Under the pieces are notes generated by a model. That model saw nothing but the letters and a program-made list of their open reading frames with translations, searched no databases and was not told where the DNA came from. Shown here piece by piece: positions 1,035 to 63,844 of a stretch of DNA of 63,991 nt. This stretch comes from a virus: IMG/VR virus record IMGVR_UViG_3300036780_000089, positions 1 through 63,991 of that record, one strand, 5' to 3'. Within the stretch, counting starts at the first letter, position 1; each line of letters begins with the position of its first letter. Position numbers and translations under genes: made by a program.

Positions 1035-1075
1035 GATCTGCTCCTCTCACTACCCTCGGCTCAACCGTTGAGTTT

Positions 1076-2479
1076 TCAGCTGTTGCGTACGCACTTGGCG
1101 TACAGGTCCGGCAGTCGTCCAGCCGGGTCGTATTCCTTTTTCAGCGCCTGGTAGGCGGCGCCGTTGTAGAGCCGGTCGAACTCGTCCCTTGAGTAGTAGG
1201 AATCCGAGTAGAGCGACTTGTGCCCGTCCAACTCGGTGACCTTCGCCTCGATCAACCGGTTGTAGTGGCCGTTGTCCTCGCCCGGCCGGTGCGGCACCGT
1301 CGACCAGAAGCCGACGTTCACGTACAGCCTGCCCGGCGCGAGCGGGTAGAGCGGCCACTGCTCCTGGGAGCGCAGCTTGAGCGGACACAGCCAGACCGGG
1401 CTGATGCCGATCTCGCGGTGGAAGAAGTCAAGGAACTCGGCGAGCCGCTCGACCGGCACCTCGACGTCCTGGATGACCGGTTCGTGTACGGGGGCGTCCA
1501 GGGAGCGGTAGAGCCGGTCGGACACCTTGTAGCGGCGATCCAGGGCGACGAGCTTGCGGTAGACGTCGGAGCGCAGGTAGCGCTTGGGCCAGAGCTTGCG
1601 CACCAGCGGCTGCTGCACACCGAACGCGCGTGAGCACCAGAACCAGTCGGTGTCCCAGCGCCACAGGTAGTCGTGGATGGTCAGGTAGTCGACCTCGCGC
1701 TCCGGGACGGACTTGTAGAAAATCTTCATCCCGGTGTAATCGCTGGTGTACGGCGCTTCGGTGACGTAATCACCGAGCGTGAGGTACGGACGCGGGTCGG
1801 GGTGGCCCGCGGTCTGATCGGCGGCGAACACGGTGCCGTCGATGAAGTCGACCGGCTCGCCCTGATAGCTCGCGTCCCGACAGATTTCGGCGATCGCCGC
1901 CGCGCATTCACCCGCGTCGGGGAACCGTACGTGGCGCAACCGGACGTAGGGCCGCACCCGCTCCAGTTCGATACGCAATCGCAATGAGTAGCCGAGGGTG
2001 CCGTAGGAGTTGGGGAAGCCCCGGAACAGGTCGGCGTGCTCACCCTCCGGAGTCGCCACCACGACCCGACCGTCACCGGTCAGGATTTCCGCTTCGAGCA
2101 GCGACTCGTGCGGCAGTCCGCTGCGGAACGAGGTCGCCTCGATACCGAGGCCGGCAACGGCCCCACCGAGGGTGATGGTCTTGAGCTGGGGAACCACGGT
2201 CGGCATGAGGCCGTGCGGGAGGGTGGCGGCGACCAGGTGCTCGTAGGTGGTCATCCCGCCGACGTCGGCGACGGCCGCGTCCGGGTCCACTCTCAGTACC
2301 GAGCCGAACTGGCTGACATCCAGGCCAGGGGCACCAGTGGGCTCCCGAAACCGGAACAAATTGGACGTCGGTTTGGCCAGCCTCACCGGCGAACCGGGCG
2401 GCAGCGCGGAGTACGCTGCCCGGAGCGTCGTCACGGCCGCGTGATGACTGTCCAAGCTCGGTTCCATTGCGGTACTCAT
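1076..2479 (-). CDS. tmsA: FAD-binding oxidoreductase, TmsA/BfaA-like (10-methylene fatty acyl reductase)
   Basis: About 467 aa with an N-terminal FAD_binding_4 (PCMH-type) domain: the segments GGMTTYEHLV, TLGGAVAGLGIEATSF and EAEILTGDGRVV fit the FAD pyrophosphate site of the 24-sterol-reductase/DWARF1 family. The C-terminal half has the conserved aromatic-rich region of that family. It would use NAD(P)H to reduce the 10-methylene intermediate made by the methyltransferase downstream, and the two genes form a short leftward operon. An ATG at 2479 was preferred; a GTG at 2485 and an ATG at 2467 are alternatives, because none has a strong ribosome site. Confidence 0.85.
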   Translation of the reverse strand: MSTAMEPSLDSHHAAVTTLRAAYSALPPGSPVRLAKPTSNLFRFREPTGAPGLDVSQFGSVLRVDPDAAVADVGGMTTYEHLVAATLPHGLMPTVVPQLKTITLGGAVAGLGIEATSFRSGLPHESLLEAEILTGDGRVVVATPEGEHADLFRGFPNSYGTLGYSLRLRIELERVRPYVRLRHVRFPDAGECAAAIAEICRDASYQGEPVDFIDGTVFAADQTAGHPDPRPYLTLGDYVTEAPYTSDYTGMKIFYKSVPEREVDYLTIHDYLWRWDTDWFWCSRAFGVQQPLVRKLWPKRYLRSDVYRKLVALDRRYKVSDRLYRSLDAPVHEPVIQDVEVPVERLAEFLDFFHREIGISPVWLCPLKLRSQEQWPLYPLAPGRLYVNVGFWSTVPHRPGEDNGHYNRLIEAKVTELDGHKSLYSDSYYSRDEFDRLYNGAAYQALKKEYDPAGRLPDLYAKCVRNS

Positions 2480-2691
2480 GAGCACTGATGCTATTGGTCA
2501 GCGGCGTTTCGGTCATCGGATGACCATCCGACATCCGTGTGATCTCAGTGTCACCTGGTGGGAGCGAGTGCCCTGGGCACACAACCTTTGCCGCCCCACG
2601 GGCGTCTTGGAATGTGTAGGGCTTGGTGGATCGCCATCGGCGGCGCAGCCAGGAGCGGGCGCGCTGGACATTGAGAGCTAATGAGGAGCAC

Positions 2692-3972
2692 ATGCAGCAC
2701 GGCAACAGAGTGCAGGGCAGACACCGCGGTTTCACTTTTCGTCCGCTGACGGGCGCGCGCGCCCGCAGGGCGGTCATCGGTGTGGTCGGCTTCGCGGTAG
2801 CCGGTGTGATGCTCGCCGCATGCAGCTCCGGCAGCGGCAACGCGACCGGCGGCTCGGGTGGGTCCGGTTCGCAGAGCGCGCCCACCACGACCTCCGGTCC
2901 CCCGGTGAGCATCGCCATCACGCCGTCGGCCGCGGACGCGGCGGCGGTGAACCCGGGCACCCCGATCGTGGTGAAGGCGACCAACGGCACCTTGAAGAAC
3001 GTGACCGTGACCAACTCCAAGACCGGCACGGCCGTCACCGGTGCCTACTCCACGGACAAGGCGACCTGGACGTCGAACGTGGATCTCGGCTTCGGCGCGA
3101 GCTACGCGGTCGACGCGCAGGGTGCCAACCCGCAGGGCGCTCCCAGCGAGCAGAAGTCCACGCTGACCACGATCAACCCGTCGGTAAAGTCGTACACGAA
3201 CATGTTCCCGGCGCCCGCCGCGTACGCGGGCCCCGGCATCGGGGTCGGTATGCCGATCATCTTCCAGTTCTCCCACGCGGTGACGAACAAGAAGGCGGCC
3301 GAGGCCGGCATCACCATCACCACCACGCCGAGCCAGCCGGTCGGCTTCTACTGGATCTCCAGCACCGAGTTGGACGCCCGGCCGCAGAACTACTGGACGG
3401 CCGGCACGAAGGTGCACGTGGTCGCCAAGTTGTACGGCACCGATCTCGGCGGCGGCAACTTCGACCAGGAGGACCGGGACGAGACCTACCACGTGCACGA
3501 CGCCTGGGTCGCCAAGGCCGACGGCAACTCCGAGCAGATGCAGATCTTCGACAACGGCAATCTGGTCAAGACCATGAACATCAGCATGGGCAAGGACTCG
3601 ACGCCGACCTCGCTCGGGCCGCACGTGATCACCGACAAGAACCAGACCGTGCAGATGAACTCGTGCACCTACGGCGTCTGTCCGCCGGATCCGCGCGCCT
3701 ACAACGAGACCGAGTACTGGGCGGAGCGGATCACCAACGGTGGTGAGTTCGTGCACGAGAACCCGGACACCGTTGGCGTGCAGGGCCACAGCAACGTCTC
3801 GCACGGCTGCATCAACCTCAACCAGGCCGACGCGCAATGGTTCTTCACCAACCTCGGGGTCGGTGACGTGGTCGAGGTGACGAACTCGGGTGGGCCGACG
3901 ATCACACCCGGTGCCTTCATCGGCGACTGGGCGGTGCCGTGGTCCCAGTTCACCCCGGTGGCCACCGCCTGA
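2692..3972 (+). CDS. L,D-transpeptidase lipoprotein (YkuD domain)
   Basis: 426 aa enzyme that forms 3-3 peptidoglycan cross-links outside the membrane. It starts with basic residues and a hydrophobic stretch ending in the lipobox LAAC (Cys44), then a Ser/Gly linker. Two Ig-like domains follow (about residues 70-270), typical of actinobacterial Ldt proteins. The catalytic YkuD domain contains HGYG-region equivalents and the signature SHGCINL, with nucleophile Cys373. The ATG at 2692 has AGGAG immediately upstream; in-frame starts further upstream lack this. A strong terminator follows at 3997. It stands alone and diverges from tmsA. Confidence 0.93.
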   Translation: MQHGNRVQGRHRGFTFRPLTGARARRAVIGVVGFAVAGVMLAACSSGSGNATGGSGGSGSQSAPTTTSGPPVSIAITPSAADAAAVNPGTPIVVKATNGTLKNVTVTNSKTGTAVTGAYSTDKATWTSNVDLGFGASYAVDAQGANPQGAPSEQKSTLTTINPSVKSYTNMFPAPAAYAGPGIGVGMPIIFQFSHAVTNKKAAEAGITITTTPSQPVGFYWISSTELDARPQNYWTAGTKVHVVAKLYGTDLGGGNFDQEDRDETYHVHDAWVAKADGNSEQMQIFDNGNLVKTMNISMGKDSTPTSLGPHVITDKNQTVQMNSCTYGVCPPDPRAYNETEYWAERITNGGEFVHENPDTVGVQGHSNVSHGCINLNQADAQWFFTNLGVGDVVEVTNSGGPTITPGAFIGDWAVPWSQFTPVATA

Positions 3973-3996
3973 TCGATCCATTCCTGGCACGTAGCG

Positions 3997-4024
3997 GGGC
4001 CCGACCGGAGAACCGGTCGGGCCC
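3997..4024 (+). terminator. Rho-independent terminator of the L,D-transpeptidase gene
   Basis: A perfect 12-bp inverted repeat (GGGCCCGACCGG, loop AGAA, CCGGTCGGGCCC) is followed by TTCGGTTTT. It lies 24 bp after the transpeptidase stop codon and ahead of the regulator gene. Confidence 0.85.
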
Positions 4025-4117
4025 TTCGGTTTTCCCACCTTGCTTCCCGGGCTCGAACGGGGTAAGAGCTGATAGGGGGCGGCTGGGCGAGGTATCGGGG
4101 TCAGCAGAGGGAGCGCC

Positions 4118-5116
4118 ATGGCGGTCCGGTTCCGGATACTGGGCAGTGTCGAGGCCGGCATCAACGGTGAGCTGGTTGATCTGGGCCCTCGGCAGCAGCA
4201 GTGTGTCCTGGTGGCGCTGTTGGTCAACGCGAACCGGCCGGTGTCCGGCGACGAGCTGATCGAACGGGCCTGGGGCGAGAGCCCGCCGCCCAGGGCGCGC
4301 AACACCCTGTACACGTACCTGTCCCGGCTGCGTCAGGCCCTGTCCGGCACGGACGAGGTGACCTTGCTGCGCAGGCCGGCCGGCTATCAGCTGGTCGTCG
4401 ACGAACAAGCCGTCGACCTGCACCTGTTCCGCTCGCTGACCGCGCGGGCGCGGGAAACGCCCGATCATGGCACCGCGGTCCGGTTGATCCGGCAGGCGCT
4501 TGACCTGTGGCGCGGCGAAGCCCTGCCCGGCCTGGACACGCCCTGGCTGCACGGGATCAGGGCGACCCTGCTCAAGGACCGGTTGGCCACCGAACTTGAG
4601 TACACCGACCTGGCCCTGGCCGGTGGCCGGCACGCGGATCTGCTGGCGACGCTGGCCAGCCAGACCGAGCAGCGGCCGCTGGACGAGCGGCTGGCCGGCC
4701 AGTTCATGCTCGCGCTCTATCGCAGTGGTCGGCAGGCCGATGCGCTCACCCACTATCAGCGCACTCAGGCCCGACTCGGCGATGAACTGGGTATCCGGCC
4801 GAGCGAACCGTTGCGTACCCTCTACCAGCAGATGCTCACCGCCGACCCGGCGCTGGCCGCACCGCGCACCGGGCCGGCGCCCGGCCGGGCCGGATCGGCG
4901 GGCGCGGAGCGGGGCGGGTCGGTGGGCGCACATCTCGCGGAGTTGCCGGCGCCACGGCAGTTGCCGGCCGCGCCGAGGGCGTTCGCGGGCCGGGCCGCGG
5001 AGATCGCGTTGCTGTCCAGGGCGATCGACGAGCACCCGGGCAACGTCAGCGGCACCGTGGTGATCTCCGCGATCGGCGGTGCCGGTGGGATCGGCAAGCC
5101 CACGCCCGAGTTATGA
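4118..5116 (+). CDS. SARP/AfsR-type transcriptional regulator truncated at its P-loop by prophage insertion
   Basis: 332 aa remnant of a longer regulator. Residues 1-95 are an OmpR-like winged-helix DNA-binding domain (GPRQQQCVLVALLVN, NTLYTYLSRLRQAL). Residues 96-245 are a bacterial transcriptional activation domain (BTAD). From about 280 the NB-ARC ATPase begins (VVISAIGGAGGIGK). The frame is normal up to Lys327 of the Walker A motif; the next five residues (PTPEL) and the stop are read from phage DNA. Full-length AfsR-type proteins continue with NB-ARC and TPR domains, which here lie on the other side of the prophage, outside the window. What remains has the domain content of a small SARP such as ActII-ORF4 and could still bind DNA. 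Confidence 0.88.
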   Translation: MAVRFRILGSVEAGINGELVDLGPRQQQCVLVALLVNANRPVSGDELIERAWGESPPPRARNTLYTYLSRLRQALSGTDEVTLLRRPAGYQLVVDEQAVDLHLFRSLTARARETPDHGTAVRLIRQALDLWRGEALPGLDTPWLHGIRATLLKDRLATELEYTDLALAGGRHADLLATLASQTEQRPLDERLAGQFMLALYRSGRQADALTHYQRTQARLGDELGIRPSEPLRTLYQQMLTADPALAAPRTGPAPGRAGSAGAERGGSVGAHLAELPAPRQLPAAPRAFAGRAAEIALLSRAIDEHPGNVSGTVVISAIGGAGGIGKPTPEL

Positions 5117-18841: not shown

Positions 18842-19015
18842 GCATTGCCCCTGGTGGCCGACCCGTAGGTAAGAGCGGGCAACACGTCACGCAACCCCCA
18901 GAGTCCGTGACACGGGTTTCACAGCAGAGAACGGGTGGACCCACCCGCCGCCACCACCAGCCGCGCACCGCGCGACACACCCCGAGGCACCAGCCACCCC
19001 GAGCGGAGGTCTGTC

Positions 19016-21508
19016 GTGGACGACCCCGAACGTCCAACTACCACCGACACGGCCACCGTCCGCGCTGCTGCTCTCGCGTGGTGCGCGGCCGGATGCTCCG
19101 TTGTCCGCGTCGCCGTGGACGGCAGTAAAGCGCCCCTCGGCGCCTGGAAAGCCGCCCAATCGCAGCGCGCCGACACCACCACCGTCACCCGCTGGTTTGC
19201 CAGCGGACACCCCGGCGTCGGCGTCGTGTGCGGCGCCATATCCGGCAACCTCGAAATGCTCGAAATCGAGGGGCGCGGCGTCATCGACCACACCGCCGAG
19301 CATTTCCTCCGCGCATTCGCCGAGCACGACGTGACCGAGCTGCGCGACCGGATTGTGTCCGGCTACACGGAAGCATCCCCGGCCGGTGGTCTACACCTGT
19401 ACTACCGGGTAGCCGACGCGCCCGCGTTGGGCAACGTGAAACTTGCTCAGCGGCCCACCCCGGACGGCGGCGTGACACCGTTGATCGAAACACGCGGTGA
19501 GGGCGGTTTCGTGATCGTCGCGCCCTCACACGGACCCGTGCACCCCACCGGCCGACCCTGGCGGCGCGTCACCGGCAGTCCCGTCACCATCGCCACCGTC
19601 ACCGCCGAGGAACGCGACGCGGTACACGAGATAGCGCGCACGTTCGACGAAACGCCGCCACCCGACCCGCTACCCGACCCGGTGACACTGGACAAACGCG
19701 ACGGTCGCACGCCACCCGGCGCCGACTACAACCAACGCGCCACGTGGGATGACGTACTCACCCCGGCAGGCTGGACGACGGTAGCGCGACACGGCGGACG
19801 GACACTGTGGCGGCGCCCCGGCAAACGCCTCGGTGTCAGCGCCGCGACCGGTGGCCCCGGCGGCGACTACCTCTATGTGTGGTCGACGTCAACCGAGCTG
19901 CCCGCCGAAACCGGGCTGTCCAAGTGGCGCGCGTACACCATGCTGCGCCACGGCGGGGACTTCCACGCGGCAGCGAAAGCGCTCAACGCGGCCGGGTACG
20001 GCGAGAAGACGTCGCCGCCACAACCGCACCGGCCCGTGCGGCTCACTGTCCTACCGGGCTACGGCGGCGGCAGCGTGAACGGCAGCACGCCGAACGGTGC
20101 CCTAGCGGCCACGCTGCCCGCCGAGGCCGCGCCCGTCGGGGCGACCACCCACGCGCGCACCGATGACGCCGTGGCGCTCGCCCTGGTCGACACGTACGGG
20201 TCGACGCTGCGCTACTGCCCGGAACGCGGTCGATGGTTGCATTGGGACGGCCACCTGTGGCGCTGGTGTGAGCGTGAGGGCGGCGTGGTACGTGAGCACG
20301 TCAAGGCCGTGGCGCGTGGGCTGGCCGAGGATGACGCCGCCGACGTTCGGCACAAGGTGCGCGCCCTGTCCGGGCAAGGCACCTCGGCCATCGTCCAGCA
20401 AGCCAGCAGTGACCCGCGCGTGGTCGTCCGCCTGGCCGAGCTGGACGCCCGACCGTTCGAGCTGAACACGCCGAGCGGCATCGTGGACCTACGGACCGGG
20501 GCGCTCATGCCGCCCGACCCGTCACACCTGCACACCCGGTCCACCACGACCGCCCCCGGCCCGGCCGCCCGGACCGATGCGTGGCACGCGTTCCTCGGCG
20601 CCACGTTCGCGGGGCACGCCGACGACCTCACCGGCTACGTGCAACGCCTGGTGGGCTACTCGGCGACCGGCGCCGTCCGAGATCACATACTGCCGTTCGC
20701 CTACGGTTCCGGCGCCAACGGCAAAAGCGTGTTGCTCGGCGCCGTGGCCAGCGTGCTCGGCGACTACGCCACGGTGGCGCCGAGCGGCTTTCTCATGGCC
20801 CAACAGAATGCGAAACATGAGACCGAAATAGCCGACCTCGCCGGGGCCCGATTCGTCGTCTGCTCCGAGCTGAACGAGGGCGACCAGTTCGACGAAGCAC
20901 GCGTCAAACTATTGACCGGCAAAGACACCATCAAAGCACGCTACATGCGACAGGACTATTTCTCGTTTGCGCCCACACATCACCTATGGCTCATGGGCAA
21001 CCATCAACCCACCATCGCATCCGGTGGCCCCGCATTCTGGCGGCGGTTGAGAATCATTCCATTCACTAACATTGTCCCACTCGGCGAACAAGACCCCGAC
21101 CTAGCCGACACATTGGCGAGCGAACACGGTTCGGCGGTGTTGGCGTGGATTGTGGCGGGTGCCGTGGATTACCTCGGCGGCGGCTTGCGGGAACCGGCCA
21201 GCGTGCACGCTGCGACCGAGGGATACGAACGTGATCAGGACACGGTGAGCCAATTCGTTTCGGAATGCTGTCGTGTGGGCGGCGGTGACAGTGTGCGAAT
21301 CCAGGTCGGAACGTTGCGGGGAATGTACGAGAAGTGGTGCCGTACCGAGGGATACGCGCCCGTGTCCGCCAAGGCGCTCGGCATGGCGTTGTGCCGAATC
21401 GAGGGCGTCGGCCCGGCCCGCTCGAACGGTGTGCGGCTCTACACCGGACTGTCACTGAGCGGACCGGCGGCCGATGACGCGTACGGCACTGGTTGGGGCG
21501 ACCGATGA
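19016..21508 (+). CDS. Replication primase-helicase (Prim-Pol + D5_N + SF3 helicase)
   Basis: 830 aa. Residues 10-180 form a bifunctional DNA primase/polymerase N-terminal domain (APLGAWKAAQ, GVVCGAISGNLEMLEIEG). A D5_N region follows (about 390-530), then an SF3 helicase with Walker A GSGANGKS near residue 564, FVVCSELNEG as Walker B-like, and sensor LWLMGNHQP. It would prime and unwind at the phage origin. GTG 19016 has GGAGG at ideal spacing, so the upstream in-frame ATG at 18935 was rejected. A candidate origin lies directly downstream. Confidence 0.9.
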   Translation: MDDPERPTTTDTATVRAAALAWCAAGCSVVRVAVDGSKAPLGAWKAAQSQRADTTTVTRWFASGHPGVGVVCGAISGNLEMLEIEGRGVIDHTAEHFLRAFAEHDVTELRDRIVSGYTEASPAGGLHLYYRVADAPALGNVKLAQRPTPDGGVTPLIETRGEGGFVIVAPSHGPVHPTGRPWRRVTGSPVTIATVTAEERDAVHEIARTFDETPPPDPLPDPVTLDKRDGRTPPGADYNQRATWDDVLTPAGWTTVARHGGRTLWRRPGKRLGVSAATGGPGGDYLYVWSTSTELPAETGLSKWRAYTMLRHGGDFHAAAKALNAAGYGEKTSPPQPHRPVRLTVLPGYGGGSVNGSTPNGALAATLPAEAAPVGATTHARTDDAVALALVDTYGSTLRYCPERGRWLHWDGHLWRWCEREGGVVREHVKAVARGLAEDDAADVRHKVRALSGQGTSAIVQQASSDPRVVVRLAELDARPFELNTPSGIVDLRTGALMPPDPSHLHTRSTTTAPGPAARTDAWHAFLGATFAGHADDLTGYVQRLVGYSATGAVRDHILPFAYGSGANGKSVLLGAVASVLGDYATVAPSGFLMAQQNAKHETEIADLAGARFVVCSELNEGDQFDEARVKLLTGKDTIKARYMRQDYFSFAPTHHLWLMGNHQPTIASGGPAFWRRLRIIPFTNIVPLGEQDPDLADTLASEHGSAVLAWIVAGAVDYLGGGLREPASVHAATEGYERDQDTVSQFVSECCRVGGGDSVRIQVGTLRGMYEKWCRTEGYAPVSAKALGMALCRIEGVGPARSNGVRLYTGLSLSGPAADDAYGTGWGDR

Positions 21509-27240: not shown

Positions 27241-29118
27241 GTGGCGCGCAAGTTCGATTTCGGCGTTGACCTGAATCTGAACCGCGCTGTCAACGTCGCC
27301 ACCGGCATAGCGGCCTCGGACGCCGCCACCGTCGCGCAAACCGTGGCAACCGGTGCCCTGGTGCTCAACGTCCACGACTACGGCGCCACCGGCAACTACC
27401 GCAGCGCCACCACGGGCGCCATGACAGCCGGATCGGCCGTGCTCACCGACGCGTCCGGCACGTTCAGCGCGGCAGACGTCGGCAAGCTCATCACCGTTGT
27501 GGGCGCCGGGTCCAGTGCTGACCTGTCCACCACCATTGCGAGCGTCCAGAACGCCACACAAGCCACGTTGACCGTGTCCGCGTCCACGACAGTCAGCGGC
27601 GCCGGATACGGCTACGGCAGCGATGACGGCGCCGCGCTCAACGCTGCGATCACAGCGGCCGGAACCCTCGGCGCCACCGTGTACCTACCGCCCGGTGGCT
27701 ACGCGGTCGGCTCGGCCATCGCACCGGCCAGCAACGTTGCGGTTGTCGGCGCGGGAATCGGTGCCAGCATCGTGTACCCGTTCGGCACCGTCGCCGCGTT
27801 CCAATTCCTCGCGTCGCTGGCCTCACCGCTCACCTCGTTCACGCTGGCACACCTGAGCATTGACGGTGTCCGCCAAGTCGGGCCGTACAACGTGAGCATC
27901 AAAGGCGTGTTCACCCAATACTGCTCGGCGTGCACGTTTGAAGATCTCATCATCCGCAACACCGTTGCCACCGGCATGGGCGCCGACTTCCTCACCAACG
28001 GCACCGTCATACACGCGGTACGTGTCGTCAACTGTGGACGGCTCAACCAAGGCGGCGTGTCCGGTGGCGGCGGCAACGGGATCGGTGTCGGCACCGGCAA
28101 GTCAACCGTTGAAGCGTTTTCGATCAGCCAATGCTACGCGTACGGCAACGGCCGATACGGGATCATGGTCGAATCGCAGACCGGTACGACGTCGCGCGGC
28201 GCGCGAATCAGCAACTGTTTCAGTCAAGGCAACTACAACCACGGGTACGGCGACGCTGGCACGTCACACGCCGCGTGGTTCAACAATGTGGCCTACGCTA
28301 ACAGCTTTGACGGATTCAGCATCGACAATGGCACCGTGGGCGTCACAGCCGTTCCCAGCGACAACAGCGTGTACAACGGATGCGTGGCGCTGTCCAACTC
28401 CCGCTATGGGTTCAGCTATCAGCCATCGGCAGGCACCAATCCCGGTGGCGGCAACATTGCGTACGTCGGATGCCGGTCCGTGTCCAACACGTCATTGGGG
28501 TTCCAAAGCAACTCGATAGCAAGTCATCCGGTCACCGGAATCAGCTACCTTGCGTGCGAGGCCGTGAATAACGGCGCGTCCGGTATCCAAGTGTCCAACC
28601 CGATGAACGATCTCAAGATCTCGGGTTGTCGACTGGCCAGCAACGGACAGACCAGCAGCACCAGCAAGACCGGCGTACAACTCAACGCCAATGTCACCGG
28701 ACTACAGATAGATCACAACCGGATTTACGACGATGCCGGTACGCAGAAACAAACCTATGCAATCGTCGTGCCATCCGGTGTCACACTCACTACCGGACAT
28801 GTCAGCGGCAACGATGTACGCGGCAACCTCACCGGTACGGTGAGCCAAAGCGGCACACTGTCCGGTGTGGTGTTGCGCGACAACGTTGGTTACACACCCG
28901 CCATTACACAGCCCGGTGTGCCAACGTCCACAACCGTGTACACCAACAACCTTGGTGTTGACTGCGAAGTACACATCACTGGTGGCACGGTCACAGTGGT
29001 TGCTGTCAACGGCATCACAACCGGTGCCACATCAGGCACGTTCATCGTCCGTGCACTGTCCACCATCACCATCACGTATTCGGTCGCACCAACATGGGTG
29101 TGGATACCGCAAGGATGA
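27241..29118 (+). CDS. Tailspike with right-handed beta-helix (pectate-lyase-like), 625 aa
   Basis: The first 45 residues (RKFDFGVDLNLNRAVNVATG) match the attachment segment of the preceding fibre. NVHDYGATG starts the pectate-lyase-type domain, with YLPPGGYAVGSA, then many short N-x-h rungs (NCFSQGNYNHGYG, NAYANSF-like units) forming a beta-helix of about 400 residues. A small beta domain closes the protein. Such spikes bind and often cleave host surface glycans; active-site acids cannot be assigned by eye. GTG start. Confidence 0.83.
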   Translation: MARKFDFGVDLNLNRAVNVATGIAASDAATVAQTVATGALVLNVHDYGATGNYRSATTGAMTAGSAVLTDASGTFSAADVGKLITVVGAGSSADLSTTIASVQNATQATLTVSASTTVSGAGYGYGSDDGAALNAAITAAGTLGATVYLPPGGYAVGSAIAPASNVAVVGAGIGASIVYPFGTVAAFQFLASLASPLTSFTLAHLSIDGVRQVGPYNVSIKGVFTQYCSACTFEDLIIRNTVATGMGADFLTNGTVIHAVRVVNCGRLNQGGVSGGGGNGIGVGTGKSTVEAFSISQCYAYGNGRYGIMVESQTGTTSRGARISNCFSQGNYNHGYGDAGTSHAAWFNNVAYANSFDGFSIDNGTVGVTAVPSDNSVYNGCVALSNSRYGFSYQPSAGTNPGGGNIAYVGCRSVSNTSLGFQSNSIASHPVTGISYLACEAVNNGASGIQVSNPMNDLKISGCRLASNGQTSSTSKTGVQLNANVTGLQIDHNRIYDDAGTQKQTYAIVVPSGVTLTTGHVSGNDVRGNLTGTVSQSGTLSGVVLRDNVGYTPAITQPGVPTSTTVYTNNLGVDCEVHITGGTVTVVAVNGITTGATSGTFIVRALSTITITYSVAPTWVWIPQG

Positions 29119-33035: not shown

Positions 33036-34460
33036 GTGTTGGATGACACCACCACGCCCGGTGCGCCCGGCTGGTGGCTGCTACGGCTCGGCCGCCGACT
33101 GGACGCGCAACGGCAGCGGTTCGACCGGCTGTCCCAATACCACCGTGGCGAGCACCCGCTACCGTTCGGCAACCGCAAGATGCGGGAAGCGTATAAGCGC
33201 CTGCAAAAGCAATCGCGGTCGAACTACGTCGGACTGATCGCTGAGACGCTGCTGGAAAGGATGAAAGTCACAGGCTTTCGGGCCGGTGGCGCGGCAACGG
33301 ACGCGACGGACAACCAGGCGTGGGGATGGTGGCAGGCCAACAAAATGGATGCCAACAGCGGCCTAGTTCACCGGGCCGCCGTGGTCATGTCTCGCGCGTA
33401 CGTCATCGTCGGGGACAACGGCCAAGGGCAACCGCTGGTCACCGGGGAAGACCCCCGGCAGGTCATCCACGAAAGTGACCCGGCCGACCGGTATTCGATC
33501 CGGGCCGCACTCAAAGTCTGGGCGGACGACGTCGAAAACCGGGCGTTCGCGGTGCTGTACTTGCCTGACACGATCCACTACTACCGGTCCACGGTCCCCA
33601 TTAACAACTTGGCGACCGCGTGGCATCCGGCCACTTGGGACGTTGACTCGTCCAACGAGTTTGCGCCGTTCGGGACGGCCATCAACACGTTGGGCGTGGT
33701 ACCGGTGGTGCCGTTCATCAACCGGCCCGACCTTGCCGGGAACGGACTCGGCGAATTCGAGGACGTGACCGACGTACAGGACCGAATCAACACGATCACC
33801 CTTGACCTGTCAGTGATATCCGGCATGCAAGCCTACCGGCAACGGTGGGTGAAAGGCGTGGACCCGGAAGACGACAAGGGCAACCCGCAAACCCTGTTCG
33901 ACCCTGGCGCCGATCTACTGTGGATCACACCAGAGGATGACGCACAGTTCGGCGAATTCGGCGCAACCGACCTGTCACCACTGATCGCCGCGATTGAGTC
34001 GTCGGTGCAAACCCTGTGCGCCATCACTCGTTGTCCGCCGCACTATCTCATCGGGCAAATTGTGAACGTGTCCGGTGACGCCCTGGCGGCGGCAGAAACT
34101 CCGCTCACGATGAAAGTCGTTGAGAGAGAACAGGAATTCGGCGAGTCGTGGGAGGCCGTCTACCGGCTAGCGGGGAAGGTGCTCGGCATCGACATATCCG
34201 ACGACGCCGAGGTGATCTGGAAAGATCCGCAGTTCCGCACGCTCACGGAAATGGCTGCCGCGTCGGTGCAACTAGAGGCCGCCGGGGTGCCGTGGCGGAC
34301 GCGCATGTTCATGTTGGACAAGACCCCGCCGGAAATCGACCGGATGCAAAAAGAGCGGGAAACCGACGCCACGCTGAACGCGCCGATACCGGTCATGCCG
34401 CCCGCGCTCGCCGCGTCGGTGCACCCGCCGAACGCCAAGATTCCGACCGCCAACGTGTAA
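33036..34460 (+). CDS. Portal protein (SPP1 gp6-like), 474 aa
   Basis: The dodecameric ring through which DNA enters the head. YVGLIAETLLERMKVTGFRA, WWQANKMDANSGLVHRAAVV and GEFEDVTDVQDRINTITLDL are the typical SPP1-gp6-family blocks, and SNYV at the N-terminus is shared with actinophage portals. Follows terminase, precedes scaffold and capsid. GTG start. Confidence 0.9.
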   Translation: MLDDTTTPGAPGWWLLRLGRRLDAQRQRFDRLSQYHRGEHPLPFGNRKMREAYKRLQKQSRSNYVGLIAETLLERMKVTGFRAGGAATDATDNQAWGWWQANKMDANSGLVHRAAVVMSRAYVIVGDNGQGQPLVTGEDPRQVIHESDPADRYSIRAALKVWADDVENRAFAVLYLPDTIHYYRSTVPINNLATAWHPATWDVDSSNEFAPFGTAINTLGVVPVVPFINRPDLAGNGLGEFEDVTDVQDRINTITLDLSVISGMQAYRQRWVKGVDPEDDKGNPQTLFDPGADLLWITPEDDAQFGEFGATDLSPLIAAIESSVQTLCAITRCPPHYLIGQIVNVSGDALAAAETPLTMKVVEREQEFGESWEAVYRLAGKVLGIDISDDAEVIWKDPQFRTLTEMAAASVQLEAAGVPWRTRMFMLDKTPPEIDRMQKERETDATLNAPIPVMPPALAASVHPPNAKIPTANV

Positions 34461-34800: not shown

Positions 34801-35334
34801 ATGTCAGACGACAGTACCGACGCTCAACAGCTTCTCACGGACGCGGTCAACGCCAACCAGCAGGACACGGCGCCCAAGCCCACCGACACCACGCCGAAAG
34901 CCGCAACGGCTACGCCGTGGGATGACCTGGGATCGTTCGACGACGTGAAAAAGCGGCTCGAACACTCGCGCACGTGGGAAAAGCGAGCCAAAGAGAACGC
35001 CGACGCGGCGAAAAAGCTTGCCGATATCGAGGAAGCGAGCAAGACCGAGGCGCAAAAGCTGCAAGACCGGTTGGCAGCGGCCGAAACGGAGCTGACCGAG
35101 CACCGCGTGCGTGACATTCGCGCCCGCGCGGCCCGCGAAGCCGGTCTTGACACCGATATGGCGGAGTTTTTGACCGCGTCGGAGCCTGACACCGCACTTG
35201 CGCAAGCAAAAGCGCTCGCCAAGCGCGTACAACCGGCAAAGCCCGACCTACGCCAAGGCGCACGCACTGCCACGCAGACCAAAGAGGACCCGAACGCGTG
35301 GCTACGCCGCGCCGCTGGCTACACCACCCCCTGA
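34801..35334 (+). CDS. Scaffolding protein, 177 aa
   Basis: Charged, helical and coiled (RTWEKRAKENADAAKKLADI, LQDRLAAAETELTEHRVRDI), directly before the capsid gene, the usual make-up of a head scaffold. Ends with DPNAWLRRAAGY. It guides capsid assembly and is removed from the mature head. Confidence 0.82.
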   Translation: MSDDSTDAQQLLTDAVNANQQDTAPKPTDTTPKAATATPWDDLGSFDDVKKRLEHSRTWEKRAKENADAAKKLADIEEASKTEAQKLQDRLAAAETELTEHRVRDIRARAAREAGLDTDMAEFLTASEPDTALAQAKALAKRVQPAKPDLRQGARTATQTKEDPNAWLRRAAGYTTP

Positions 35335-35395: not shown

Positions 35396-36355
35396 ATGGC
35401 CGACTACGGCGACATTATTTCGCGGGCGTCGACCGGTTCCGATCCCCTTGTGCCGGAACCGGTCAGCACCGCCATCATCGAGGAACTTCCCAAGCAATGC
35501 GCGGTACTTCAGCGCGCCCGCAAAGTCCAGATGAGCGCCAAGACTCAGCGTATGGCCGTTCTGGACGTGCTCCCGGTCGCCTATTTCGTCAACGGTGACA
35601 CCGGAATGAAGCAGACTTCTTCCCAGAAGTGGAAGAATGTTTCCCTGGTCGCCGAGGAAATCGCCACCATCGTGCCGATTCCCGAATCGTACCTTGCGGA
35701 CGCCGACGTTCCCGTGTGGGACGAAGTCAAGCCGCGCATGACCGAGGCTATCGGCGCGCTCATCGACGGTGCGTGCCTGTTCGGCGTGGGCCGTCCGTCC
35801 ACCTGGAACACCAGCATTTACGAGGGCGCCACGGCGGCGGGCAACATCGTGACCGAGGGCACCGGCATCGACTTCGCCCAAGACGTGACGGCTGTTGGCG
35901 AGCTGTTGGCCAAGGACGGCTATTCGGTGGACGGGTTCGTGGCTCGGCCTGGCCTGAATTGGCGGCTGACCGGCATGCGTTCGCAGGGTACGAACCTGCC
36001 GATTTACCAGCCGAATTTGCAAGACGGCAAGCCCGGCGGGAACCTCTACGGCTACCCACTGGCCGAAGTGGACAACGGTTCGTGGAACGAGTCCGAGGCG
36101 CAGCTCATCGCGGGTGACTGGGATGACGCGCTGCTCGGCATGCGTGCCGATATCTCGTTCAAGCTGTTCACGGAAGGCGTTATCTCGGACGACACGGGCA
36201 AGATCGTGTTGAACTTGATGCAACAGGACAGTGTGGCCATGCGCGTGACCATGCGGCTTGCGTGGGCCACGGCGAACCCGGTCACCCCGTTGAATCTCAA
36301 CGATGCCACCCGGTACCCGTTCGCGGTGCTCAGCTCTGCCGGGCCGAACAGCTGA
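35396..36355 (+). CDS. Major capsid protein (HK97 fold), 319 aa
   Basis: TAIIEELPKQCAVLQRARKV, a beta-strand pair (RMAVLDVLPVAYFVNGDTG), KWKNVSLVAEEIATIVPIPE and MTEAIGALIDGACLFG are the conserved elements of the HK97-type family. GGAGG precedes the ATG. Forms the icosahedral head with the scaffold upstream. Confidence 0.93.
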   Translation: MADYGDIISRASTGSDPLVPEPVSTAIIEELPKQCAVLQRARKVQMSAKTQRMAVLDVLPVAYFVNGDTGMKQTSSQKWKNVSLVAEEIATIVPIPESYLADADVPVWDEVKPRMTEAIGALIDGACLFGVGRPSTWNTSIYEGATAAGNIVTEGTGIDFAQDVTAVGELLAKDGYSVDGFVARPGLNWRLTGMRSQGTNLPIYQPNLQDGKPGGNLYGYPLAEVDNGSWNESEAQLIAGDWDDALLGMRADISFKLFTEGVISDDTGKIVLNLMQQDSVAMRVTMRLAWATANPVTPLNLNDATRYPFAVLSSAGPNS

Positions 36356-36408
36356 CCGAGCGGAACCGCATCGGCGCCCGCGAACCCGTGATGCGACAAG
36401 GGGAATCA

Positions 36409-37458
36409 GTGCGCGTACTCGCCATGCTGCACCTGTACACGCCGCATCACAACGCGGGCGCCGAAATGGCCGCACACGCCCTGTTGCGTGGCCTGGTCGA
36501 CCGGGGCCACCGGGTCGACGTCATCCTGTCCCGCCACCATCCCGAGATCACCGGTCCGTACACGGTGGACGGGGTGCACGTACACCCGCGACACAACAAG
36601 GGTGACCCGCCCCGGTGGCTCTCCGACCCGGCCACACACCCGCACGTCATCGTCACCCACCTGGAAAACACCGACCGGGCAACTATCCTCGGCGCCTTGC
36701 ACCGCGTGCCGGTAGTGCACCTCGCACACAACACGCACCCGCAAACCAAGTGGTCGATACTGCGCCGCCCCGCCCTGGTGGTCGCTAACTCGGCGTGGAT
36801 GGCCGAGGACTTGTCTCACTGGTGGGACCTGGCCAGGCCGAAACGGCATATGCCCCCGGTGATCGTGATTCACCCGCCGATCCACGCCGAGGACTACCGG
36901 ACGAAACCCGGTCAGCACGTGACGTTGATCAACGTGACCGCCGACAAGGGCGCGGACATGTTCTATGCCCTGGCCGACCGGCACCCCCGGACGCGGTTCC
37001 TTGGCGTCGAGGGTGCCTACGGCGTCCAGGATCGCCGCCAACGGCCAAACGTGACGTGGGTGGACCACGTGGCAGGGGACCGGATGCGCAGCGCCGTGTA
37101 CCGCCGTACGCGGGTGCTGCTCATGCCGAGCGTGTACGAGTCCTACGGCCGCGCGGCGGTCGAGGCCGCATGCTCCGGTATCCCCACCATCGCCGCGCCC
37201 ACGCCCGGACTACGGGAAGCACTCGGACCCGCCGGGGTGTTCGCCCCACGTGACGACGTGGACGCCTGGACGGCCCACCTAGAGCGGTTGCTCACCCCGT
37301 CCGGCTGGTCCGCCGCGTCCGAGGCCGCGCTAGCCCGCGCCGCCGAGCTGCACACCGACGCCGACCTAGACCGATGGGCCACGGCCGTAGAGGGGGTGTC
37401 CCGGTGGATGCCCTCGCCGCGCTCTCTGACGTCACTGCCCGCTATCCCGGCACGCTGA
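36409..37458 (+). CDS. GT4-type glycosyltransferase, 349 aa, inside the head-tail gene block
   Basis: GT-B fold: N-terminal HLYTPHHNAGAEMAAHALLR with the donor-acceptor loop, and a C-terminal nucleotide-sugar domain containing VLLMPSVYESYGRAAVEAAC, the E-x7-E signature near residue 244. AAGGGG supports GTG 36409 over ATG 36391. Its 3' end overlaps the connector gene by 55 nt, so it is part of the late operon. A target could be the capsid or the FnIII-bearing tail tube; that is inference. Confidence 0.88.
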   Translation: MRVLAMLHLYTPHHNAGAEMAAHALLRGLVDRGHRVDVILSRHHPEITGPYTVDGVHVHPRHNKGDPPRWLSDPATHPHVIVTHLENTDRATILGALHRVPVVHLAHNTHPQTKWSILRRPALVVANSAWMAEDLSHWWDLARPKRHMPPVIVIHPPIHAEDYRTKPGQHVTLINVTADKGADMFYALADRHPRTRFLGVEGAYGVQDRRQRPNVTWVDHVAGDRMRSAVYRRTRVLLMPSVYESYGRAAVEAACSGIPTIAAPTPGLREALGPAGVFAPRDDVDAWTAHLERLLTPSGWSAASEAALARAAELHTDADLDRWATAVEGVSRWMPSPRSLTSLPAIPAR

Positions 37459-38024
37459 GCGGCGACCAGGTAGCCCGCGTGCCCGGTCTGCTCGGCGACG
37501 CGTCGACCGTGGTCCGCAGCTACACGCGGCAGACGTTCACCCCGGCCACGGTCACAGAGAACGTGCGGCCGATCGGTGACCGGGTCCGGCTACGGCAGGC
37601 ACCCGTCACCGCCGTCACCGCCGTGTCCCTGGTGGACACGCTCACCGCCGGGAGCTTGCTTGCGCTGCCGATGGGTGCGTGGATGTGGGACGGTGGCCAA
37701 GAGATCTGGCTAGGCGCCATTAACACGGTGATCAATCTGCCCGATGACATCACCGAACTGTTGCAATATCAGACGCCGCTGGTCCAAGTCGTGTACGCGT
37801 TCGGGTATGACGTGATGCCCGACCCGGTGGTGACCGTGGTGTGTTCGATGGTGATTCGCGCACTCGACATGCCCGGCCCGGTGTCGGTCGCCAGTTCCAC
37901 CGTGGGCGGACTGTCCTACCGTCTCGGGACCGCCGCGCAAGACGGCATTCTCGGCCTGACACCGTCTGAGATGCGCATGCTTGCCCAGTACCGCCGGGTG
38001 GCGACCACGGTAGAGCTGCGATGA
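37404..38024 (+). CDS. Head-tail adaptor/connector protein, 206 aa
   Basis: GTG 37404 with AGGGGG upstream. Helical start (VDALAALSDVTARYPGTLSG), then RLRQAPVTAVTAVSLVDTLT and GLTPSEMRMLAQYRRVATTV. Order after the capsid and before the stopper fits a gp6/gp15-type adaptor. Confidence 0.78.
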   Translation: MDALAALSDVTARYPGTLSGDQVARVPGLLGDASTVVRSYTRQTFTPATVTENVRPIGDRVRLRQAPVTAVTAVSLVDTLTAGSLLALPMGAWMWDGGQEIWLGAINTVINLPDDITELLQYQTPLVQVVYAFGYDVMPDPVVTVVCSMVIRALDMPGPVSVASSTVGGLSYRLGTAAQDGILGLTPSEMRMLAQYRRVATTVELR

Positions 38025-39241: not shown

Positions 39242-40183
39242 ATGGCCGGTGTCACCTGGGATAGCATCTTTCCTGGCAATACCGCACTTGTCCGTAAGGC
39301 GCTGTATGGCTCTGTGCTCGTACAGGACTACGACGCCGACAACAGCTTTGCCACGTACAGCCCGTTTGATCCCACTACGGGTTTGCTCAGCTCGTCTCTG
39401 CTCACATCGGACGGTTGGTCTGACTGTGGCTACCTGGACGAAAACGGTGTCGAGTTCACGCCGACGTACAGCACGGCGGACACAAACTCTTGGCAGACAA
39501 GGCAACCGCTGCGCACCGACGTCACGGCGGACACCGAACAGGCCAAGATCACGGCCTTGCAGTCTACGCCGCTGATCGACTGCCTGTACAACAGCCTGCC
39601 GCTGTCGAGCGCCGGTAGCCTCGGCGCCGCCGGGTACTCCTACGCCAAGCCCAAGACACCGTCCATTATCTACCGGTCGCTGTTGTTCCTCGGCGTTGAC
39701 GGTTCGTCGGGTGAGTATTCTTTCCTGGCGACGCTGTACCCGCGCGCGTTGATGATCAAGCCCGATAAGCAGGATTGGGTTGCGAAGACGGAAATCCAAA
39801 CTCCGTTGACTTTCCAGGCGTATCCCGACACGCAAGCCGGATTCACGATCAAGCGATTCCGCGACGGTCCCGCGTGGCGTTCGCTGGCCGTACCGAACCC
39901 GCCGACCGCGCTCACCGTGGGCGCCAAGACCACGACCACGCTCCCCGTGTCGTGGACCGCCCCGGCCAGTGGCCCGACGCCGACCGGCTACACGGTGTCC
40001 GTGGTGCTCACCTCTACCGGTGTCCCGGTTGCGGGCGCCACGTTCACGCCGAGCAACCCGAACACCACCACGGCCGCCACGGTCGGTGGCCTGGTCACCG
40101 GCACCCAGTACACGGTGTCCGTGGTCAGCGATGGCACCAACGGCAACAGCACGGCCGCCACCGTCACGGCCACCACCAACTGA
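39242..40183 (+). CDS. Major tail (tube) protein with C-terminal FnIII/Ig-like domain, 313 aa
   Basis: Residues 1-215 form the tube fold, with ALYGSVLVQDYDADNSFATY and TFQAYPDTQAGFTIKRFRDG. From about 220 a fibronectin-III-type domain follows (PPTALTVGAKTTTTLPVSWT, TGYTVSVVLTSTG, TATVTATTN), rich in Thr and Ser, exposed on the outside of tails in phages that have it. AAGGAGAT precedes the ATG. Confidence 0.88.
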   Translation: MAGVTWDSIFPGNTALVRKALYGSVLVQDYDADNSFATYSPFDPTTGLLSSSLLTSDGWSDCGYLDENGVEFTPTYSTADTNSWQTRQPLRTDVTADTEQAKITALQSTPLIDCLYNSLPLSSAGSLGAAGYSYAKPKTPSIIYRSLLFLGVDGSSGEYSFLATLYPRALMIKPDKQDWVAKTEIQTPLTFQAYPDTQAGFTIKRFRDGPAWRSLAVPNPPTALTVGAKTTTTLPVSWTAPASGPTPTGYTVSVVLTSTGVPVAGATFTPSNPNTTTAATVGGLVTGTQYTVSVVSDGTNGNSTAATVTATTN

Positions 40184-61004: not shown

Positions 61005-62612
61005 CTACGCGGCGGCGGACACCACCACGTCCGGCCGCGTGCGCGTCGGCACCTTGGGGCGAATCTCAATCGTTTCCGGGTAAAACCCGCTGCCACGCTG
61101 CCCGGACGGGTGGATCTTGACCGTCACCATGGTGTCGATCACCGCTCGCTTGATCGCCAACGGTTGCGCGTCCCACGCGGCGGCCACGTCCCGAGCGGCC
61201 AATAGCGGTAGCACGGGCGAGTCCTGCTCTACCGACGCGGCCAACGTCGTGTTGATCTCCTCTAGGCGGTTGTTCCCGCGCTCGATACCGTGCAAGTACT
61301 GCTCACGGGTAATGATCCGCGCGCCCCGGTCTGCGGCCAGTTCGTTCAGGCCGTCCCTGATCGCCGCCGCTTCCGCGTGCAACGCGCGGGCGTCCACCGC
61401 CGGGCCGGTCTCCACCGTGAACACCTCGGCCGCGTCCGGGCGCGACAGACGCTCAATGATCACGTCGCGTACAAACAAGTCGAGCCGTTCCGCGTTGCGC
61501 GTCAAGTGATTCTTGCCCTTGCACGCGTAGCGCGGCGAACGGCCCTTACCGCCCGACACCCAACACGTCGTGCCATCGTCACAGATACCGCACCGGTAGA
61601 TGCCGGAACCCTGCCAGCGCGGCGTAGCGCCCTGCTCAGCGTTCGTGCGCCGACTCGGGTCGGTCAGCACCCGCACCACGGCCCGGAAGACCGGTTCCGG
61701 CACGATCGGCAACCACGGCGCCGGGCCGATTTCCTCGCCCCGGTGTTCCATGATCCCGGCGTTGCGCGGGCGCAACAGAATGTCCCGTAGCGTCGCCGCC
61801 GTCCACGCTGCGCCGGTCACGGTCGGCACCTCGGCCGCGCGCAACTCGGCGGCCAACAGGCGCAGCGACGTCAGCTTGCCCGCCCGGTGTGCGCGTCCGT
61901 CGATTTTCAGCACGCGGTGCGACGCCACGTTAATGATCATGCATTCGTCCCACCGTTTGGTGATCCCGTCCGACTCGAATCCGAACCGGCGCGGGCCACC
62001 ACCGAATTCGTTCGCGCGCGCCTTGCGTTCCCGGCCCTCGGCGACCCGCCGCGACGTGTCCAAGCTGGACTTGTTCGCGATCGTGACCAGGAACCGTGCC
62101 ATCGTGATCTCGGAATCCGTGCCGCCATCGGTCAAGGTCAGCGAACTGGACACCGAACGCGCGTTCGCTTTCGTCGTGCGCACGGCCGCGATCAGATCTT
62201 CACAGTCGTACGGGTCACGCATCGTCCGGTCAAGATCTTCCGTGAGCAGCGCGTCATACGTACCGTCCGCGATACCGCGCACGATCCGCTGAAAACCCGG
62301 ACGGATCACGCGGAAGATGACCGACCCGTCCGCTTGGGTGATCTTGCGCCGCTTGAACGCGGACGCGTTGCGCTGCTTGCCGCCCTCACGTCGTGCGACG
62401 TCGTTTTCAATGATCACGTCAACAACGGTCCAGCCGTGGCGCGCGGCCAGTTCGCGGACAGCGGACTCACGGGCGCCGAACGTCTTGGCCTCGCCCTGGT
62501 CGTTCAGGTCGGCGTCATCAAGATCACTCAGACGCAGGTAGATGACGCACCGCTGCCCCGGACGGGTGAGCAGGGTCGTTGCGGCGGCGGCGGGCCGACG
62601 TGTGCGAGACAT
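61005..62612 (-). CDS. int: Large serine integrase, 535 aa
   Basis: Resolvase domain with catalytic Ser29 in VIYLRLSD, then Arg residues and LLTEDLDRTMRDPYD, a recombinase domain (TLRDILLRPRNAGIMEHRG), a zinc ribbon (YRCGICDDGTTCWVSGG, Cys again in PRYAC) and a coiled-coil and C-terminal domain. Such enzymes join attP and attB directionally without host factors; reversal needs a phage directionality factor. ATG 62612 overlaps the preceding stop (TGATG). attP lies 1.25 kb upstream. Confidence 0.95.
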   Translation of the reverse strand: MSRTRRPAAAATTLLTRPGQRCVIYLRLSDLDDADLNDQGEAKTFGARESAVRELAARHGWTVVDVIIENDVARREGGKQRNASAFKRRKITQADGSVIFRVIRPGFQRIVRGIADGTYDALLTEDLDRTMRDPYDCEDLIAAVRTTKANARSVSSSLTLTDGGTDSEITMARFLVTIANKSSLDTSRRVAEGRERKARANEFGGGPRRFGFESDGITKRWDECMIINVASHRVLKIDGRAHRAGKLTSLRLLAAELRAAEVPTVTGAAWTAATLRDILLRPRNAGIMEHRGEEIGPAPWLPIVPEPVFRAVVRVLTDPSRRTNAEQGATPRWQGSGIYRCGICDDGTTCWVSGGKGRSPRYACKGKNHLTRNAERLDLFVRDVIIERLSRPDAAEVFTVETGPAVDARALHAEAAAIRDGLNELAADRGARIITREQYLHGIERGNNRLEEINTTLAASVEQDSPVLPLLAARDVAAAWDAQPLAIKRAVIDTMVTVKIHPSGQRGSGFYPETIEIRPKVPTRTRPDVVVSAAA

Positions 62613-63547
62613 CAGCGCTCACCCCCGGCGCGGTTGACCTCGGCGGTGTGCACCGTGATCATGGACGACGCCGCAGACATCGGCGCTTCCGAGTGGGACA
62701 GGTGGTAAGCGTCGACCAGGGCGATACACCGCGCGCTGAGAGCCGCGATCAGCTCGGCGTCCTGCTCGGCGGCGGGGCGCCGCTCGGCCTCGGTCAGCTT
62801 CGCCTGAGCGTCGGCCACCATGGCACTCAACGCCGCCGTGACGCGGTCAAGCGGCGTCGCGCCGCCCCAATGCCCGGCGAGGCCGTCACACCGGCCGTAC
62901 GCGTCCAGCGGGCGCCCACACACGCCGTCCCCGGCGTCCGCGCGGCACGTGCCGTAGTCGTCGTGCGCCCGGCGGGCGGCCTCGCGACGCGTGATCGACG
63001 CATGGTGCATGTCGTCCAACAGGTTGGTAAGGGACGCCTCGGCCTTGCGCTGAGCGGCCTCGGCGGCGTCGGCCTCGGCAGGGTCGGCCTCGGCGGCGGG
63101 CGCCGGGACGGTGACGTAATGCAACCGCGTCCAGTAGTAGTCAAAATTCGGTGCACCGTGCGGCCCGTCAAAGCGGCTGACCGAGTAGCGCCGCTCACCG
63201 CTGGGCATGAGTACGGCGGTGAACGAGTAGCGCTTGCCGGACAGGGTGCGCGTCCAGTGGCGGGACGTGCCGTTGCCGGGGCGGTTCGGCTCGGTGACCC
63301 GCACGGCGCTGCGCGGGCCGACCGGCGCCGAGGCAAGGCGCTTGGCCTGCGCGGCGGCTCCCGCGTCCGTGAGGTACCAGCGGGCGAACTCCAGTGCGTC
63401 GCCGTTGGCGTCGCGGTGCTGTTCGCACCGGATCACGCCGCGCCGCTCCAACGCCTCTAGCGTGACGCCCTTGACACCGGGGGCGTGCACGTCGCCCGTG
63501 ATCGCGTCCAGCGCCGCCCACATGGCCGGGGTGAGTTTGATCGACAT
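62612..63547 (-). CDS. Integrase-operon protein, winged-helix-like N-terminus, 311 aa
   Basis: Residues 1-70 (LTPAMWAALDAITGDVHAPG, LEALERRGVIRCEQH) look like a winged helix ending in WYLTDAGAAAQAKRLA. A beta segment follows (SGKRYSFTAVLMPSGERRYS), then helices and a Cys cluster (CRADAGDGVCGRPLDAYGRC). Directly upstream of and coupled to the integrase, so it is made together with it. A regulator of integration, or a directionality factor, is possible but unproven. Confidence 0.7.
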   Translation of the reverse strand: MSIKLTPAMWAALDAITGDVHAPGVKGVTLEALERRGVIRCEQHRDANGDALEFARWYLTDAGAAAQAKRLASAPVGPRSAVRVTEPNRPGNGTSRHWTRTLSGKRYSFTAVLMPSGERRYSVSRFDGPHGAPNFDYYWTRLHYVTVPAPAAEADPAEADAAEAAQRKAEASLTNLLDDMHHASITRREAARRAHDDYGTCRADAGDGVCGRPLDAYGRCDGLAGHWGGATPLDRVTAALSAMVADAQAKLTEAERRPAAEQDAELIAALSARCIALVDAYHLSHSEAPMSAASSMITVHTAEVNRAGGER

Positions 63548-63771
63548 CAGAACAGCCCCCCGATCGCGGTCACCAGGCCGGTCACCAGGCCGGTCAGGAA
63601 GCGCAACGGCGATTCGGTCACGGCGAGCATGACGGGCCGGGTGGCGGGCAGCACGAACGCGACGACCAGCGCCACGACCAGGGCGGCCACGACGGTGCCG
63701 GTGATCAATGCCGCGCGGCGGGATGGGGGCGCCGGGTCGGCGTCCGGGGCGGGTGACGGTTGGGTGTTCAA
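63547..63771 (-). CDS. Two-TM membrane protein, 74 aa
   Basis: Pro-rich start, TM helix AALITGTVVAALVVALVVAF, a second hydrophobic stretch FLTGLVTGLVTAIGGLF. ATG 63771; its stop overlaps the next start. First gene of the integrase operon. Confidence 0.65.
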   Translation of the reverse strand: MNTQPSPAPDADPAPPSRRAALITGTVVAALVVALVVAFVLPATRPVMLAVTESPLRFLTGLVTGLVTAIGGLF

Positions 63772-63802
63772 CGTGACATCTCCTGGTCAACGCGGGTTCA
63801 AG

Positions 63803-63844
63803 CGGCGGTAGTCGCTTGGCGCTAGTCAACTGGCGCATGTCAAT
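63803..63844. repeat. Three tandem 14-bp units adjoining attP
   Basis: CGGCGGTAGTCGCT (63803), TGGCGCTAGTCAAC (63817), TGGCGCATGTCAAT (63831): contiguous, the last two differing at three positions and the first more degenerate. They lie between the integrase operon start and attP. Confidence 0.72.

Follow-up and report, generated by a model that had tools for sequence, protein, structure and literature searches.

The stretch of DNA analysed here, referred to as the window, is a 63,991-base IMG/VR virus record which reads as a prophage. Host-like genes (FAD-binding, SARP/BTAD regulator) occupy its left end at positions 1-5116, and these flank genes, together with a serine recombinase in the region 61005-63838, indicate an integrated prophage. 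The head and tail module spans 30838 to about 50400, and the head genes follow each other in the order TerL, portal, scaffold, major capsid protein (MCP), glycosyltransferase (GT), head-tail adaptor, head closure, neck, tail terminator and tail tube. Just upstream of the terminase and outside the tail module, a pectate-lyase-like beta-helix protein is encoded (27241-29118), possibly a tailspike or depolymerase. The features of the window are as follows.

18935-21508: primase-helicase
33036-34460, plus strand: portal protein (PF05133, 2e-24)
34801-35334, plus strand: capsid scaffolding protein (PF14265, phrog_9857)
35396-36355, plus strand: MCP of the HK97 fold type, the proposed acceptor (PF05065, 3e-22; phrog_10, 1.4e-45)
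36350-36352, plus strand: AGC, codon of the C-terminal Ser of the MCP, the proposed glycosylation site (terminal-residue statistics and window sequence)
36398-36404, plus strand: Shine-Dalgarno-like AAGGGGA of the GT, read from the sequence
36409-37458, plus strand: GT4-family GT-B-fold glycosyltransferase (GT), PHROG 26352 (Pfam, PHROGs, AlphaFold, Foldseek)
37389-37396, plus strand: Shine-Dalgarno-like AGAGGGGG of the adaptor, read from the sequence
37404-38024, plus strand: head-tail adaptor Ad1 (phrog_442, 5.3e-24), start placed by the Shine-Dalgarno-like motif and the homologue of the GT-less locus L222
38021-38356, plus strand: head closure protein Hc1 (phrog_501, 3e-21)
39242-40183, plus strand: major tail (tube) protein (phrog_476, 1e-55), with an fn3 domain at about 39899-40153 (PF00041, 1.6e-9) and AAC (Asn) as the last codon
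61005-62612, minus strand: serine recombinase

Pfam, PHROG membership and the start signal agree on a complete GT4-type enzyme at 36409-37458, as the first-pass annotation had proposed with the right coordinates. Read from stop to stop, the frame opens at 36262 and contains an in-frame ATG at 36391; the likely start is GTG 36409, with this ATG as the alternative, because AAGGGGA precedes the GTG and the homologues at loci L003 and L004 begin exactly there. For the adaptor, GTG 37404 is the probable start, given that AGAGGGGG stands in front of it and that the adaptor of L222 begins at the same residue (MDPLA). The adaptor and the GT overlap by 55 nt from this start, and by 85 nt if the listed ATG at 37374 is taken. 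With the MCP upstream and the overlapping adaptor downstream, the GT is indeed located inside the head-tail operon and overlaps a connector gene, as had been claimed from the letters of the window, and it follows from this layout that the enzyme is predicted to be made along with the structural proteins. The dN/dS of the GT relative to its nearest homologue is 0.10, similar to that of the capsid gene, and the gene is intact and under purifying selection. This value, together with a gene order recurring in 85 of 88 loci, argues against a chance open frame.

The protein matches PF13692 (1e-12), PF00534 (7e-11) and PF13439 (4e-8), and the GT4 N- and C-terminal domains exceed the curated cut-offs, with 33.8 bits for PF13439 (cut-off 28.5), 49 bits for PF13692 (27) and 42.3 bits for PF00534 (26.4). 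Structural modeling with AlphaFold yielded a confident GT-B double Rossmann fold (pLDDT 95.5), and the EX7E motif is present, its residues E250 and E258 (numbered from 36391) being invariant among 62 homologues. In a Foldseek comparison the model matched MshA with an E value of 1e-16 and a TM score of 0.75, and the nearest solved structures are MshA, mannosyltransferases, BshA, PglA and PimA. The bacterial GT4 enzymes MshA, PimA, BshA and PglA thus resemble the window GT in the GT-B fold, the EX7E motif and a TM score of about 0.7, but they share only about 13-21% identity with it, use other acceptors and are not phage genes. The window protein is a member of PHROG 26352 (E value 1.6e-99), a family that carries the annotation "unknown function" and for which a function is proposed here.

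More than 140 loci with GT homologues were retrieved from viral contigs and from a genome set with one representative per species, chiefly viral contigs and genomes of Streptomyces and other actinobacteria; they were drawn from best-match lists, and the locus counts are not to be read as unbiased frequencies. Among the 88 viral or prophage loci in which both the MCP and the adaptor were recognised, the GT lies between the two in 85. In L016, one of the three non-conforming loci, the GT is really in place, its frame having merged with an open frame upstream. A second sample (A4), chosen by a different MCP type with the GT disregarded and intended as a second GT-less control, consisted almost entirely of GT-positive loci (88 of 90 with a GT in the locus). 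In the related GT-less isolates Muddy, JacoRen57 and ReT1v-2 the slot is occupied by a small gene, and in L222, which is placed near the window MCP on the tree, the adaptor follows the MCP directly; no GT was found anywhere on the 24-kb contig of this locus.

Thirteen of the 85 loci with a GT in the slot carry a second GT after the adaptor as well. Such a paralogous gene between adaptor and head closure was seen at L006, L015, L016, L024, L025, L033, L034, L040, L042 and L091-L093, and perhaps serves a second sugar or the tail. Between MCP and GT, HNH-endonuclease-like genes are present in L017, L023, L027 and L032 and a methyltransferase-like gene in L080, as judged by sequence reading. About 20 loci in Streptomyces genomes (L102, L103, L104, L107-L119, L121, L122, L128) possess a GT homologue with no recognised phage genes nearby, and in several of these an NHL-repeat beta-propeller protein adjoins it. 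Proteins of about 650-680 aa with two GT4 units in tandem are encoded at L137, L141, L145 and L007 (Streptomyces loci, TurkishDelight).

In the GT-bearing loci, the last residue of the MCP is Ser or Thr in 98% of 65 clusters formed at 90% identity (Ser 86%, Thr 12%). For other proteins of the same loci the corresponding values are 7% (TerL), 4% (portal), 18% (scaffold), 3% (adaptor), 3% (closure) and 2% (neck); the tail terminator reaches 48%, a value driven by one lineage, and 18% with clusters at 60%. When the MCPs are aligned at their right ends, the entropy is 0.24 bit at position -1 compared to 2.2-3.5 bits at positions -2 to -15. Eight MCP families with less than 50% identity between them are all essentially Ser/Thr-ended, while their tails vary in length and sequence, and the window MCP ends in SSAGPNS. 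Such a conservation of the very end over differing tails is the pattern that would be expected of a C-terminal recognition site. The terminal codons are TCN (44) and AGY (37) for Ser and ACC (12) for Thr, and the use of both Ser codon families points to selection on the amino acid. We also considered whether the terminal Ser might be a nucleotide artefact of a stop/start overlap, which was rejected since TCN and AGY both occur and the gaps range from -3 to more than 1000 nt. A literature search, with Freeman et al. 2023 outside its reach, retrieved neither a stated C-terminal Ser rule nor a report on GTs of PHROG 26352.

In a control set of MCP relatives gathered without regard to the GT, complemented by named isolates, the MCP is Ser/Thr-ended in 42 of 46 GT-positive cases versus 4 of 43 GT-negative ones; the GT-less relatives mostly terminate in residues such as P, A or E. 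The MCP of L222 ends in KTA, and the MCPs of L217, L218 and L229, which are located inside the GT-positive clade and have no GT, end in H or G. Similarly, Girafales and Misha28, two F1 mycobacteriophages, have a Che8-type GT and K-type MCPs ending in DGS; of seven K-type relatives in which this GT was not detected, six end in P, E or A. Exceptions occur on both sides, as some GT-positive MCPs end in GSA or GSN and the GT-negative L168, L177/L181, Wintermute and L341 have MCPs ending in Ser; the annotated MCP of Myrna, which ends in KA, also counts against the rule. Two further candidates for a GT-less, Ser-ended MCP were discarded: L199 runs into an integrase, indicating a broken or rearranged contig, and the contig of L219 carries a GT4-like gene. 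On the MCP tree the GT state changes three to four times, and independent pairs were concordant in 2.7 of 3 comparisons and never opposite (sign test, p 0.25); the pairs agree, in a number too small for significance alone. A specific coevolution of GT and MCP was dropped as evidence, as the partial correlation of distances is weak and unspecific (0.16 versus 0.33 for TerL). This absence of correlated divergence fits an enzyme that would read only the last residues of its acceptor, without being proof of it.

The tail tube protein was considered as a further acceptor. Its last residue is Ser in 81% of the clusters from GT-bearing loci; that of the window ends in TATTN, and the relatives at L003 and L014 end in TATTS at the same point. 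The C-terminal FnIII domain that the first-pass annotation had noted on the tail tube is present, but an FnIII-type end occurred in only five of the GT-positive tube proteins seen, most of which are devoid of fn3, and the domain was therefore rejected as a requirement for the GT. Based on its sequence, it is doubtful that the tail tube of the window serves as a second acceptor. The suggestion that the enzyme decorates capsid or tail proteins is thus upheld in its capsid part by the slot and the terminal Ser, and is weaker for the tail tube with its Asn end and unlinked FnIII domain. One lineage (L044, L056, L069, L084), with MCPs ending in LT and tubes ending in TP, is the main group in which the tube is not Ser-ended.

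Virion glycosylation by phage enzymes has precedents. According to three articles (PMC12363180, PMC12619734, PMC11600133), the capsid and tail tube proteins of Che8 and Corndog carry glycans at their C-termini, attached by GTs that the phages encode, and the three name Freeman et al. 2023 as the source study for Che8 gp108-110 and Corndog gp36-38. The first demonstration of glycosylated phage virions is recent and comes from mycobacteriophages, and the modification is reported to weaken antibody recognition (cited in PMC12363180 and PMC11600133); the roles of phage GTs are reviewed in PMC12619734. GTs within the structural operon have been described for cluster O (PMC4351075). The Che8/Corndog type has in common with the window a phage-encoded GT and a capsid protein with a C-terminal Ser: the MCP and tube of Che8 end in KTGS and SDGS, and those of Wildflower (cluster O) in VGS and GDS. 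In contrast to these Ser-ended tubes, that of the window ends in Asn, and no O-methyltransferase adjoins the window GT. The positions differ as well, the GTs being located at the far right genome end in Che8 and between portal and protease in cluster O, as opposed to the single GT4 gene between MCP and adaptor in the window. The enzymes are unrelated by sequence; with Wildflower instead of Corndog itself representing the Corndog-type GTs of cluster O, neither hmmsearch with the family HMM nor phmmer matched Che8 gp108-110 or Wildflower gp34-36, and blastp E values were at least 2.

The only isolate match among 50,697 phage records is gp20 of the Streptomyces phage TurkishDelight, which belongs to the same GT family (37-39% identity) and is likewise encoded between the capsid and tail tube genes. 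It differs from the window GT in being a tandem double GT of 679 codons including the stop, both halves of which match the family, and the capsid and neighbouring genes of TurkishDelight are of another type than those of the window; its MCP ends in GSTS and its tail tube in VAS. The earlier suggestion of a case independent of the mycobacteriophages is, for the capsid, well supported by the unrelated enzyme family, the conserved location and the Ser rule.

Based on the intact fold and catalytic motif, the fixed place beside the capsid gene and the near-invariant terminal Ser/Thr, we consider it probable that the GT O-glycosylates the C-terminal Ser of the MCP, a reading for which we infer catalysis, acceptor identity, surface exposure and role of the glycan alike. 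A soluble GT-B (GT4) enzyme would be translated in the late head operon and would use a nucleotide sugar to glycosylate the hydroxyl group of this Ser; in relatives the acceptor might also be Thr and probably a Ser that ends the tail tube protein. Each capsid would then display hundreds of glycans on its surface, and these may shield or stabilise the virion or bind surfaces.

Alternatively, the GT might modify a polysaccharide or teichoic acid of the host surface during lysogeny or late infection, leading to receptor masking or superinfection exclusion, with its place in the head operon being incidental. Small molecules, lipids and polysaccharides are common acceptors for GT4 enzymes with this fold, MshA, BshA, PimA and PglA as the nearest structures among them, and the window represents a temperate element that encodes a serine recombinase. 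However, the slot between capsid and adaptor persists in divergent phages with different capsid types, and the capsid C-terminal Ser covaries with the GT. Known seroconversion GTs usually lie elsewhere than in the virion operon, those for O-antigen or surface conversion (gtr-like) in a conversion cassette, whereas the GT of the window is found inside the head operon and does not correspond to this type; we regard a host-surface role as unlikely.

It might also be argued that these capsid proteins end in Ser by descent or for structural reasons (assembly or surface chemistry), and that the GT has a different virion target, for instance the adaptor, a decoration protein or the tube's FnIII domain. 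GT and terminal Ser are mostly co-inherited along one MCP tree, the adaptor overlaps the GT and most tail tubes at these loci are themselves Ser-ended. Nevertheless, the terminal Ser recurs in at least eight distant-to-unrelated MCP families with differing tails and is found on the other MCPs of Che8, Wildflower and TurkishDelight, while the adaptor C-termini have no common residue and fn3 is limited to a minority of tubes, which makes this possibility decidedly unlikely. Other phages use GTs with the GT-B fold to glucosylate hydroxymethylated bases, and the enzyme could similarly glycosylate phage DNA carrying a hypermodified base. We consider this highly improbable, as a DNA-modifying GT is not expected to be tied to a capsid slot or to the C-terminal residue of a capsid protein, and no gene for base hydroxylation or hydroxymethylation was recognised among about 30 ORFs of the window scanned outside the head and tail module, short ORFs being covered in part.

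Virion glycosylation by phage GTs and the location of such GTs in the structural operon of cluster O (PMC4351075) were already known. As far as the literature was surveyed, what is new is a GT4 family, unrelated to the enzymes of those systems, that holds a constant position in the head operon of many actinobacterial phages, together with the function proposed for PHROG 26352 and a target rule, the terminal Ser, which also fits the known systems. If glycosylation of the capsid C-terminus holds true, another enzyme family, unrelated to the first, performs this task from a fixed place in the head operon in many phages of Streptomyces and other actinobacteria, a function can be given to PHROG 26352, now labelled as unknown, and the target is named to a single residue, providing a simple sequence rule for sugar-carrying phage capsids. 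It might thus be hypothesized, and we are inclined to favour this view, that a single C-terminal Ser/Thr serves as a portable glyco-tag of capsid and tube proteins, used independently by unrelated phage GTs, and that PHROG 26352 acts in virion maturation as a core gene throughout a large group of actinobacterial phages and prophages; virion glycosylation would then be far commoner outside the mycobacteriophages than is now recognised, and predictable from sequence.
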